Position numbers and translations under genes: made by a program. From an uncultured Bacilli bacterium (GTDB taxonomy: Bacteria > Bacillota_I > Bacilli_A > RF39 > UBA660), in the NCBI GenBank assembly GCA_947627375.1, contig CANQVR010000007.1, positions 1 through 33,445 of the forward strand: a stretch of DNA of 33,445 bases, read 5' to 3'. Shown in pieces: positions 1,842 through 33,203 of the stretch. The notes under the pieces are model-generated. The model was not told the DNA's origin. It made no database searches and saw only the letters and a program-made list of their open reading frames with translations. The stretch's first letter is position 1, and each line of letters starts with the position of its first letter.

Positions 1842-1928
1842 GCCTGCGTGGTGGAATTGGTAGACACGTTGGACTCAAAATCCAATGGTACTTGTACCGT
1901 GCCGGTTCAAGTCCGGCCGCAGGCACCA
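1842..1928 (+). tRNA. tRNA-Leu (anticodon CAA)
   Basis: A class II tRNA with long variable arm. The acceptor stem GCCTGCG pairs with CGCAGGC. The anticodon stem TTGGA/TCCAA encloses loop CTCAAAA, giving anticodon CAA, which reads UUG. The T-arm contains GGTTCAAGTCC. The discriminator base is A at 1925 and CCA is encoded at 1926-1928. Confidence 0.97.
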
Positions 1929-1965: not shown

Positions 1966-1993
1966 AAAACGACTTGCAAAAAAAGCCGTTTTT
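1966..1993 (+). terminator. Probable terminator of tRNA-Leu
   Basis: AAAACG (1966-1971) pairs with CGTTTT (1987-1992), with an A/C mismatch and three further inner pairs, and a T run follows. The stem is AT-rich, so strength is uncertain. Confidence 0.5.
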
Positions 1994-2031
1994 ATGTTAT
2001 TATGTATTTGTTAAGGAGACTTGCATAAAAT

Positions 2032-2072
2032 AAAAAAGGAATACCTAATTTTGACGAGTTAGGTACTATTCC
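2032..2072 (-). terminator. Terminator of the small hydrophobic peptide gene
   Basis: On the minus strand GGAAT, a three-base bulge and ACCTAA pair with TTAGGT and ATTCC around a 10-base loop. TTTTTT then follows in the minus direction. This is a convincing intrinsic terminator for the gene at 2109-2186. Confidence 0.7.
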
Positions 2073-2085
2073 CAAATTTTAGGTT

Positions 2086-2110
2086 AGTACCGACTTATAC
2101 AGTTGGTACT
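2086..2110 (-). other. 3' hairpin overlapping the stop codon of the small peptide gene
   Basis: AGTACCGACT (2086-2095) pairs with AGTTGGTACT (2101-2110) over ten base pairs including one G-U pair, with a 5-base loop. On the minus strand it starts at the stop codon. It could stabilise the 3' end of the mRNA or act as a second terminator. Confidence 0.6.
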
Positions 2111-2186
2111 ATTTTATTAATATGATTAAAATCACAATAATAAGGAGTATTATGATAGTACAAAGATATTTCTTTGCTTTTTTCAT
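2109..2186 (-). CDS. 25-residue hydrophobic peptide, type I toxin-like
   Basis: On the minus strand a perfect AAGGAGGTGA stands four bases before an ATG at 2186. The 25-codon frame starts MKKAKKYLC and continues as an almost unbroken run of Ile, Leu and Val ending in Lys. This is one short membrane helix with a basic N-terminus. Two hairpins follow, the second with a T run. A very strong Shine-Dalgarno, a tiny hydrophobic peptide and a structured 3' end resemble type I toxin genes of Firmicutes (the TxpA/BsrG/Fst kind), but I see no clear homology to a named family. I could not identify a convincing promoter or an antisense-RNA promoter. A small regulatory membrane peptide is an alternative. 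Confidence 0.5.
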   Translation of the reverse strand: MKKAKKYLCTIIILLIIVILIILIK

Positions 2187-2228
2187 AACTTCACCTCCTT
2201 CCATTTTAAAAAGTAAAGGAGATAAATT

Positions 2229-2558
2229 ATGGAACAAATATATAACAAATTAGTAAGAGATAAAATACCTGAAATAATTAAATCAAATGGAGATGAACCA
2301 ATTACTAGAGTTCTAACAGATGATGAATATAAAATTGAATTAGAAAAAAAATTAAATGAGGAATATCAAGAAGTTTTAAGTGCAACTGGAAAAGATAGAA
2401 TAGAAGAATTAGCCGATATGTTAGAAATAATGAAATATTTAGCTAAATTAGAAAATGCAACATTAGAAGAAATTATTGCTATTGCAAAAGAAAAAGGAGC
2501 AAAAAGGGGAACTTTTGAAAATAAAATATTTTTAGAAAAGACGTTGAGAAAGGAATAA
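2229..2558 (+). CDS. MazG-like nucleotide pyrophosphohydrolase
   Basis: A 109-residue all-helical protein beginning MEQIYNKLVRDKIPEII, the signature of a MazG/HisE-like group usually annotated as phosphoribosyl-ATP pyrophosphohydrolase-like. The acidic helices contain EEYQEV and later EELADMLEIM, matching the ExxE...ExxD metal-binding pattern of the superfamily. The likely role is hydrolysis of unwanted NTPs to NMP and pyrophosphate. No his genes are nearby, so a house-cleaning role is more likely than histidine synthesis. AAAGGAG precedes the ATG. The gene is monocistronic here and its 5' region is shared with the antisense small peptide gene. The exact substrate cannot be told. Confidence 0.8.
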   Translation: MEQIYNKLVRDKIPEIIKSNGDEPITRVLTDDEYKIELEKKLNEEYQEVLSATGKDRIEELADMLEIMKYLAKLENATLEEIIAIAKEKGAKRGTFENKIFLEKTLRKE

Positions 2559-31610: not shown

Positions 31611-33203
31611 TTATTCTTTTCTTTTTTTATAAATTGTAATACCAATAACTCCACATCCAATTAGTAAAGCAAGTCCTCCACTTATAAATGGTAAACTATT
31701 AAGAAAAGCATTTGTATTTGGAACTCCAACATTAGATAAAGGACTATTCTTCATTGTTATAGTAGGAGTTGTAGTACCATCTACTTTAAAGTCTATACAT
31801 TCTTCATTTAATGAATAATTATCTGGTGCAGTAGACTCACATAATGTATAGTCTCCGCTTTCTAAATATATATATTTTGGAGTAGTAGTAGAAGTCCAAC
31901 TTGCAACTTCTTCATTAGTAGTTTTATTTTTAATTACTAGACTTGCTCCAGGTAGTTCTTTTTTGTTAGTAGCATCTATTTTACTAATTTTTACAAGATT
32001 TTTTAAGTTTAGATTTTTTGATACTTGTTGTGTTGGAATATAACCTAAAAGGACATCGGAAAATTGTTGTTGTTTTGATTCACTATTGAAGGTAGAATCT
32101 TCTGAGGTAGAATTTGTAACACGATAACTATTAGCATCTAATTTTAAGAAATTAGCAGTTACTGTGATTTTTACTGATGTTAAATCCATATCATCTTTTA
32201 AGGGAATATAGACTTTAAAACCACCACTGTTTACGTTGTTAGCATCTATTTTATTACCTGTTGGATCTGCAATATATGCACCATAATTATTTGGATCATC
32301 TATATTAACTGAATATGATAATATTGGAGATTCAGGATTTGTAGCACTTGGAGATATAACCTCAGTATAAAGAATTTTACCATCAGGAGTAATAGTATAA
32401 TTTGATGATTCACTTGATGATAATGATAATCCTACTGTTTGAGTAGAAGTAGTTGCCTTTGTGGCACCTTCTAAAAGTTCTAAAACATAATTAAAATATT
32501 CATAACCATTTTTTCCAGCAGCATCTTTTATTATATTTTTCATTTCTTCAGCAGTAGTAGTTTCTACTACGTAAGATGTATCTTTATATGAGTTATAAAA
32601 ATCACAACCATTCATTTCTTTAAAAGCTTCAGGTGTATTATCTTCAGTACTTAAATGAACGTTAATGTTTTTGCAATAGTCAGCAGTAAATTGTGTTTTG
32701 TTTTCATATAAATATAACCATAATGTAATTTGAGTTAAATATTGTTGAATATTATTATCTACTGTACCATGAGTTCCTTTAGAAAATATATTGTTTATAT
32801 TTAAGTTATTATAACCATGACTTAAAATATATTTTATGCCATTATCTGTAACGGACATTGGATTATCTCCAGGTATTATTTGAAATTGTTCTGTAGTGCG
32901 TGCAAATTTTGAATTTTTAGTTAAGACATATAATGGAGTTGAATTATCATTAGTTCTATAGTTAAGAGGAACATTAAAATTTCCTATATATTTTCTTTTT
33001 TCATAACTATTTCCTAATGCCTTTTGAACATAGTTGATAGTTTCTGTACCACTAAAATTAGAATTAAATGTATTAGTAGGAACTCCACTATCATCAACTG
33101 TTATTGCATAACTATCTTTAAGAAAATATAAAGAAAAAGTAAATAGTAATATAAAAATACTTATTGAACTAATTGTTAAGATAATTTTATTTGTTCTTAT
33201 CAT
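31611..33203 (-). CDS. Cell-surface protein with thioester-like and SpaA-like domains
   Basis: A 530-residue surface protein with a signal peptide (about residues 1-33). Residues 50-240 resemble the TQXA thioester domain: YLTQITLWLYL (T157-Q158...W162) gives the TQ..W motif, but where the partner cysteine is expected (TPxYC) the sequence is TPLYV at V93. Residues about 405-485 are a SpaA-like prealbumin-fold domain (VKISKIDATNKKELPGASL ... GDYTLCESTAPDNYSL), with Lys, Glu and Asn suited to an isopeptide bond. The end is GVPNTNAFLNSLPF, a membrane helix and KKRKE, which resembles a sortase signal but is not LPxTG. It probably acts in adhesion. No sortase gene is in the window. GGGTGAT precedes the ATG. 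Confidence 0.82.
   Translation of the reverse strand: MIRTNKIILTISSISIFILLFTFSLYFLKDSYAITVDDSGVPTNTFNSNFSGTETINYVQKALGNSYEKRKYIGNFNVPLNYRTNDNSTPLYVLTKNSKFARTTEQFQIIPGDNPMSVTDNGIKYILSHGYNNLNINNIFSKGTHGTVDNNIQQYLTQITLWLYLYENKTQFTADYCKNINVHLSTEDNTPEAFKEMNGCDFYNSYKDTSYVVETTTAEEMKNIIKDAAGKNGYEYFNYVLELLEGATKATTSTQTVGLSLSSSESSNYTITPDGKILYTEVISPSATNPESPILSYSVNIDDPNNYGAYIADPTGNKIDANNVNSGGFKVYIPLKDDMDLTSVKITVTANFLKLDANSYRVTNSTSEDSTFNSESKQQQFSDVLLGYIPTQQVSKNLNLKNLVKISKIDATNKKELPGASLVIKNKTTNEEVASWTSTTTPKYIYLESGDYTLCESTAPDNYSLNEECIDFKVDGTTTPTITMKNSPLSNVGVPNTNAFLNSLPFISGGLALLIGCGVIGITIYKKRKE

Follow-up and report, generated by a model that had tools for sequence, protein, structure and literature searches.

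Type I toxin-antitoxin systems easily escape detection, as their genes are tiny and evolve fast. The known range of these systems is narrow and biased by search methods (PMC12390103). Among those described, aapA/IsoA of Helicobacter combines local hairpins that sequester the Shine-Dalgarno (SD) sequence with a covariation-supported long-distance 5'-3' interaction that makes the full-length mRNA inert; for aapA3, this mRNA is 225 nt long and contains a 90-nt ORF (PMC6733600). The TxpA/RatA, BsrG/SR4, BsrE/SR5 and YonT/SR6 systems of Bacillus subtilis use a convergent antisense RNA of ~100 nt on the 3' end of the toxin mRNA, and this pairing stands upstream of RNase III decay (PMC4147584, PMC5848175). 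In Fst/RNAI-RNAII (par, pAD1), which has a small hydrophobic peptide, convergent RNAs overlap at their 3' ends, and TisB/IstR-1 of E. coli brings together a 29-aa hydrophobic toxin, a LexA-controlled toxin promoter and an antitoxin promoter without a LexA box (PMC4147584). Antitoxins retained without their toxin are known from zor/orz of E. coli (PMC11264685). Our literature search for toxin-antitoxin systems in the bacterial group studied here found nothing.

We analysed a 33,445-nt stretch of DNA (the window) from an uncultured member of the Bacilli, in which a preliminary description had proposed an unannotated, type I toxin-like peptide gene on the minus strand beside a tRNA gene. Direct reading bore out the SD, the 25-codon hydrophobic ORF, the hairpin at the stop codon and the minus-strand terminator (Table 1). 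The region folds far more stably than dinucleotide shuffles, with z-scores of -5.4 for the minus and -4.3 for the plus strand. The same SD, ORF and hairpins recur in relatives from other genera and at other sites, with ~89-90% identity over 240-300 nt, and the feature is therefore not a product of chance. The peptide gene is a member of a multicopy cassette, not an isolated peptide. We conclude with good confidence that it is a decayed member of a large, multicopy group of type I toxin-antitoxin-like cassettes from an uncultured, AT-rich family of Bacilli, with the mechanism proposed below.

Table 1. Features of the cassette and its flanks in the window.
Feature	Position	Strand	Remarks
tRNA-Leu (CAA)	1842..1928	+	ARAGORN; Rfam RF00005; cassette adjoins
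Inverted repeat AAAACGACTTGC..GCCGTTTT	1966..1992		Likely plus-strand tRNA terminator; terminator-like scan match
Predicted antitoxin promoter TTGCAA-18-TATTAT	1974..2003	+	-35 TTGCAA at 1974-1979, inside the inverted repeat
Predicted antisense (antitoxin) RNA	2009..2121	+	~113 nt; overlaps toxin 3' UTR as far as the stop codon; both ends placed from promoter, tag and terminator positions
5' tag of antitoxin RNA, GTTAAGGAGACTTGCATAAAATAAA	2010..2034	+	25 nt; family consensus GTCAAGGAAACTTGCATAAAATAAA; short GNRA-loop hairpin
Hairpin 1	2038..2072	both	Minus: toxin mRNA terminator, followed by T6 at 2037-2032; plus: antisense arm
Hairpin 2 and T-rich stretch	2085..2111	+	Predicted antitoxin terminator (terminator scan); overlaps toxin stop codon
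Putative toxin ORF	2109..2186	-	ATG 2186-2184; 25 codons, 25 aa, MKKAKKYLCTIIILLIIVILIILIK; stop ends at 2109
Shine-Dalgarno AAGGAGGTGA	2191..2200	-	Direct reading
Anti-SD hairpin CTCCTT..AAGGAG	2192..2223	-	Marks where the window's cassette ends on the right
MazG-like protein gene	2229..2558	+	Weak PRA-PH match; abuts the truncated cassette; context, outside the cassette

The tag at the 5' end of the predicted antitoxin RNA, allowing up to two mismatches, was found in 184 of 386 genomes of the window's family at up to 16 per genome, and the reversed tag pattern, used as a control, had 0 matches in the same 386 genomes. In a class-wide draw it occurred in 10 of 247 genomes, only one of which (G552) lies outside the family. 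That genome carries an exact tag (G552:C32:11748-11772) in another family of the same class, reflecting either horizontal transfer or contamination. By DNA search, homologues were present in 79 of 98 relatives; the window's own family accounts for the strong matches and for most loci. Among named records, those carrying the tag are Bacilli or Tenericutes assembled from gut metagenomes, including Candidatus Ventrenecus. This cassette family is widespread in uncultured gut bacteria and was previously unnamed. A search of the window's own genome located two further copies of the 1930-2040 block, each following a tRNA gene. At C10 (L003) the block faces a convergent ORF that differs in sequence (MKKKDLLISFLILIIILLIVSLMILSIKK) and is served by an SD and a promoter of its own; at C48 (L002) only a remnant is left.

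Cassette copies were collected via the antitoxin tag, yielding 270 distinct loci, of which 174 contain an intact convergent, SD-preceded hydrophobic ORF ending 65-145 nt from the tag. Where no ORF passed, 49 of 75 loci still align to a peptide; some of these remnants are intact with a weaker SD, and others are frameshifted or truncated. Antitoxin retention is guaranteed by this procedure, because loci were collected by tag, and toxin loss without antitoxin loss is accordingly seen with a bias. Six loci (L057, L058, L084, L097, L107 and L125) appear to be antitoxin-only, keeping the tag and antisense hairpins with no peptide remnant detected. At L021 (1578, minus), the tag and antitoxin promoter follow a tRNA-Arg gene, and a fragment resembling a nucleotidyltransferase-type sequence lies in the toxin's place.

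The 174 ORFs fall mainly into five subfamilies: A, the window's own (MRKSEKYLCSIIILLIIVILIILIKIVPTV, dN/dS 0.32), B (MKKKDLLISFLILIIILLIVSLMILSIKK, 0.14), C (MTKREFSQFIIILLLFLVVIILLLK, 0.18), D (MKTKTFIIKVLKLIAIILFLLIIMIVVIKK, 0.42) and E (MNKKDFLILSLIILIFLLVLLLFIVLI, 0.21). The peptides are 22-34 aa long, and their best 19-aa hydropathy is 3.2-3.7. Within-subfamily dN/dS values of 0.14-0.42 place this short hydrophobic peptide under purifying selection. A profile search against Pfam, NCBIfam, PHROGs and PADLOC returned no toxin-family match near any cut-off, such short peptides being hard for profile HMMs. The toxins of the TxpA/BsrG type differ in being 38-59 aa long and have no sequence match to the cassette peptides; TisB has no sequence relation to them. 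Nor was there a peptide match to aapA/IsoA, as judged by these library scans.

The peptide gene had been described as overlapping nothing on the plus strand; this strand is not empty, and a predicted promoter and the tag read from it into the 3' end of the gene. Across 260 copies, this antisense promoter retains a -10-like element in 257 and a -35-like element in 246. By the positions of convergent promoter, tag and terminator, a predicted antisense RNA gene overlaps the toxin mRNA, an arrangement like that of the B. subtilis systems, which are also from Firmicutes, and of Fst/par. An Rfam scan of the region found only the tRNA above cut-off; a plus-strand match to the SIB antitoxin (13.9 bits against a cut-off of 56) was treated as chance. 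The par locus differs in that the 5' parts of its two RNAs are complementary by virtue of direct repeats. Such direct repeats with 5' complementarity occur in none of our subfamilies: the cassette leader and antisense RNA share an inverted repeat, and the leader therefore pairs with its own 3' UTR. IstR-1, by contrast, is divergently encoded and acts on the 5' region. The predicted antisense RNA overlaps the 3' UTR, which may be a difference from aapA/IsoA; the common 5' tag of the cassette antitoxins also sets them apart from that system.

The frequent placement beside tRNA genes, proposed earlier, held up. A same-strand tRNA lies within 200 nt upstream of 87 of 249 copies, mostly at 77-82 nt, compared with 15 of 805 positions drawn at random within the same loci. 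Among 86 tRNA-linked copies, the inverted repeat carries the consensus AAAA..ACTTG..AAAAGT.CGTTTTTATG. In the window (1966-2003), as in tRNA-linked copies, the likely tRNA terminator stem holds the antitoxin -35, such that termination and antitoxin start share bases. Phage and viral collections gave no meaningful match to the cassette, and the plasmid collection gave a single match covering 18% of the query; a prophage or plasmid origin is therefore not supported, in contrast to the mostly prophage-borne TxpA/BsrG systems. Tandem cassettes in the same orientation were observed, with four tags in ~3 kb (L316), three in 1 kb (L293, identical to L062/L100) and a further case at L132. Two secreted proteins of the window's genome, encoded elsewhere in the window (31611-33203, minus) and at L003 (54-1061, minus), have C-termini made up of VPNT(N/D)A, then a transmembrane stretch and a basic tail, possibly a non-canonical sortase signal.

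Predicted mRNAs, taken from start to terminator, adopt one fold topology in all five subfamilies: a helix of ~25 bp joins the leader to the 3' end, and a hairpin occludes the SD. In every subfamily the leader is a same-sense copy (inverted on the DNA) of the antisense RNA just after the tag, and the partner of this leader in intact copies is the hairpin 1 sequence. Because it carries the same sense sequence, the leader can occupy the antisense RNA's binding site. Predicted duplex energies between leader and 3' UTR were -32.5 kcal/mol for the own partner, -28.7 within the subfamily, -17.5 between subfamilies and -10.9 for shuffled leaders. In alignments thinned to <90% identity, standard pairs make up 97.9% (D) and 97.2% (E) of the long-range helix, as against 91.8 and 90.6% after column shuffling (reached by 0 of 300 shuffles), and doubly changed pairs number 7 and 6, respectively. 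Since shuffles do not remove relatedness, the thinning and a slid control were added; pairing in the slid helix fell below 50% in both subfamilies. The antitoxin terminator hairpin follows the same covariation trend, and the 3' UTR hairpin covaries in subfamilies other than the window's; the sequences of A and C are too alike for covariation to speak. These compensatory changes support the predicted 5'-3' closure in the more varied subfamilies. Prediction and covariation together, above all in B, D and E, suggest a structure that holds off translation of the toxin mRNA. The combination of 5'-3' interaction and occluded SD resembles aapA/IsoA; it has been lost in the window copy.

The toxin promoters have the consensus TTGtat.aagAACaaatGTTTG.TATAAT. 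A strict LexA pattern (GAACRNRYGTTYG) had no match in the window's genome, and a looser LexA-like palindrome, scored against shuffles, was used in its place; the Firmicutes LexA core is AACn4GTT (PMC2248561). At a level reached by at most 5% of shuffles, the palindrome occurs in 61 of 101 toxin promoter regions versus 8 of 159 antisense promoters, and of the 76 high-scoring sites, 66 begin at precisely the same place, 15 nt ahead of the -10. LexA is encoded in genomes of the family, and the palindrome is found upstream of lexA and of recA, though at this threshold in only 7 of 17 genomes each; the window's genome has both. Given the operator-like sites, the LexA gene and the sites upstream of lexA and recA, SOS control is likely for about half of the copies. 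A second promoter class (n=23) has GTTCGnTTGTTT at the -35 instead of the palindrome; this sequence was not found around lexA or recA, and no regulator is assigned to the class. The motif TGTTCGnTTGTTTT at the -35 of this class was seen at L078, L079, L098, L101, L119-L121, L126, L129 and other loci. A LexA-like box in the toxin promoter is a trait shared with TisB, although the window copy has none, and sets many cassettes apart from aapA/IsoA. The pairing of 5'-3' closure with a LexA-like operator is not part of the description of the TxpA/BsrG-type systems (PMC4147584, PMC5848175). In its mRNA closure the cassette recalls aapA/IsoA, in its 3' antisense overlap TxpA and BsrG, and in its likely SOS control TisB; with this combination it very probably constitutes a new family of type I toxin-antitoxin systems.

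The proposed toxin architecture applies to the cassette family and is not supported for the window copy as a working toxin. Its identity to intact subfamily A copies (L005, L007) ends at 2222, inside the leader, and mazG follows; the remaining leader, the -10 and the LexA-like operator of intact copies, and with them the toxin promoter and leader of a functional type I locus, are missing. The window has either lost ~32 nt of leader or been joined at this junction, as far as the alignments tell. The ORF length of 25 codons given earlier is correct for the window, but homologous ORFs are mostly 30 aa long, ending in ..IKIVPTV. Compared with these relatives, the window lacks one base of the A-run that precedes the stop, which accounts for the early termination of the frame; by this comparison, a 1-nt deletion shortened the window peptide. 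The antitoxin half looks intact, with its promoter, its tag and the two hairpins all preserved. With the -10, operator and leader missing and the frame one base short, the window copy likely has a silent toxin and a live antitoxin. The zor/orz antitoxins offer a parallel, though they belong to another family and the window keeps the toxin frame, its promoter being gone.

The adjoining mazG gene likely uses the cassette's anti-SD bases (plus-strand AAAGGAG) as its ribosome-binding site (RBS). In G011 the same neighbours occur in the same order, with leader and -10 present, mazG broken and the toxin frameshifted. A chimeric assembly at the cassette/mazG junction was judged unlikely because of this identical neighbour order. 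MazG-like genes were seen in only 9 of 40 relatives, yet adjoin the cassette in three genomes, the window's, G011 and G023 (L228, L230, L239); a fragment of the mazG N-terminus also lies between cassettes in G023:C17. Frame-breaking differences among close relatives had been named in advance as evidence against a gene. They do occur, in the window and in G011; given the many intact copies under selection, we read them as decay of individual copies and not as absence of a gene.

Several other readings deserve consideration. A cryptic promoter within mazG could still drive the window toxin, from an mRNA of leaderless type that is shorter and in which the local hairpin alone restrains the SD. In favour of this, the 25-aa ORF, its SD, the terminator and the anti-SD hairpin are all intact, and in another genome (L073) a full promoter accompanies a 25-aa version. 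We nevertheless consider it unlikely, as the mRNA-closing leader is missing and no minus-strand promoter scoring at least 9/12 at normal spacing lies within ~150 nt upstream, the best near candidate (TTACTA-19-CATAAT) reaching only 8/12. A broader objection is that the cassettes might encode small membrane proteins, regulated by an antisense RNA, that serve in housekeeping or under stress and are not toxic. That the peptide is under purifying selection would suit this role, and several known small membrane peptides are non-toxic at native levels. Multiple and tandem copies within genomes, however, together with patchy presence, fit an addiction or toxin module better, and the antisense RNA is kept by copies with disrupted peptides, alongside several layers of translational silencing; we regard a benign function as rather improbable.

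The remaining readings dispense with a functional peptide or tie it to a neighbour. The leader and the 5' part of the antisense RNA form inverted copies flanking the ORF, near-identical copies sit at unrelated sites (G012), and the tRNA association is strong, all of which might be expected of a MITE-like mobile repeat with near-palindromic ends that mimic leader and terminator around an incidental ORF. Set against dN/dS well below 1, a conserved SD, promoters that lie beyond the inverted repeats and have fixed operators, and copy-specific double changes that preserve pairing, this is very improbable. Still less credible, to the point of being negligible, is a leader peptide or attenuator of a neighbouring gene: a short ORF followed by hairpins has that general appearance, but the ORF is directed at the tRNA and not at mazG, has its own terminator and lacks regulatory codon runs, and the neighbours vary between copies.

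For the type I toxin-antitoxin-like cassette, we infer the following mode of action. In an intact copy, the toxin promoter, in about half of cases with a LexA-box-like operator between -35 and -10, would produce an mRNA of ~225 nt. Its 5' leader would pair with its 3' end and its SD would lie in a local hairpin, so that the full-length mRNA would not be translated. A second, antisense RNA, convergent and probably constitutive, would carry the common 5' tag and overlap the whole 3' UTR; by binding the mRNA, it may lead to RNase III-type decay, keep the mRNA closed, or both. SOS or other stress would lift mRNA levels above those of the antisense RNA, and 3' trimming would probably open the mRNA. 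The resulting single-helix peptide of 22-34 aa would insert into the membrane and slow or kill the cell.

If this is true, a single Gram-positive-type cassette closes its mRNA as aapA does, opposes it with an antisense RNA at the 3' end and carries a LexA-like operator, features known so far from separate systems. The conserved antitoxin tag provides a simple handle that reaches five peptide subfamilies at once, in bacteria without a cultured model. The window in turn illustrates one route of cassette decay and of reuse, as the mazG RBS. More tentatively, and with less than even confidence, we suggest that a genome may hold up to ~16 paralogous type I toxins, each with a closed mRNA and a cognate antisense RNA, jointly induced through LexA upon DNA damage and jointly tuned through the 5' tag, for instance if one protein or nuclease acted on all of them; the 3' flanks of tRNAs would be the preferred docking sites. 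The presence of up to 16 copies in a genome of 1-2 Mb makes specificity between paralogous antitoxins a testable question.
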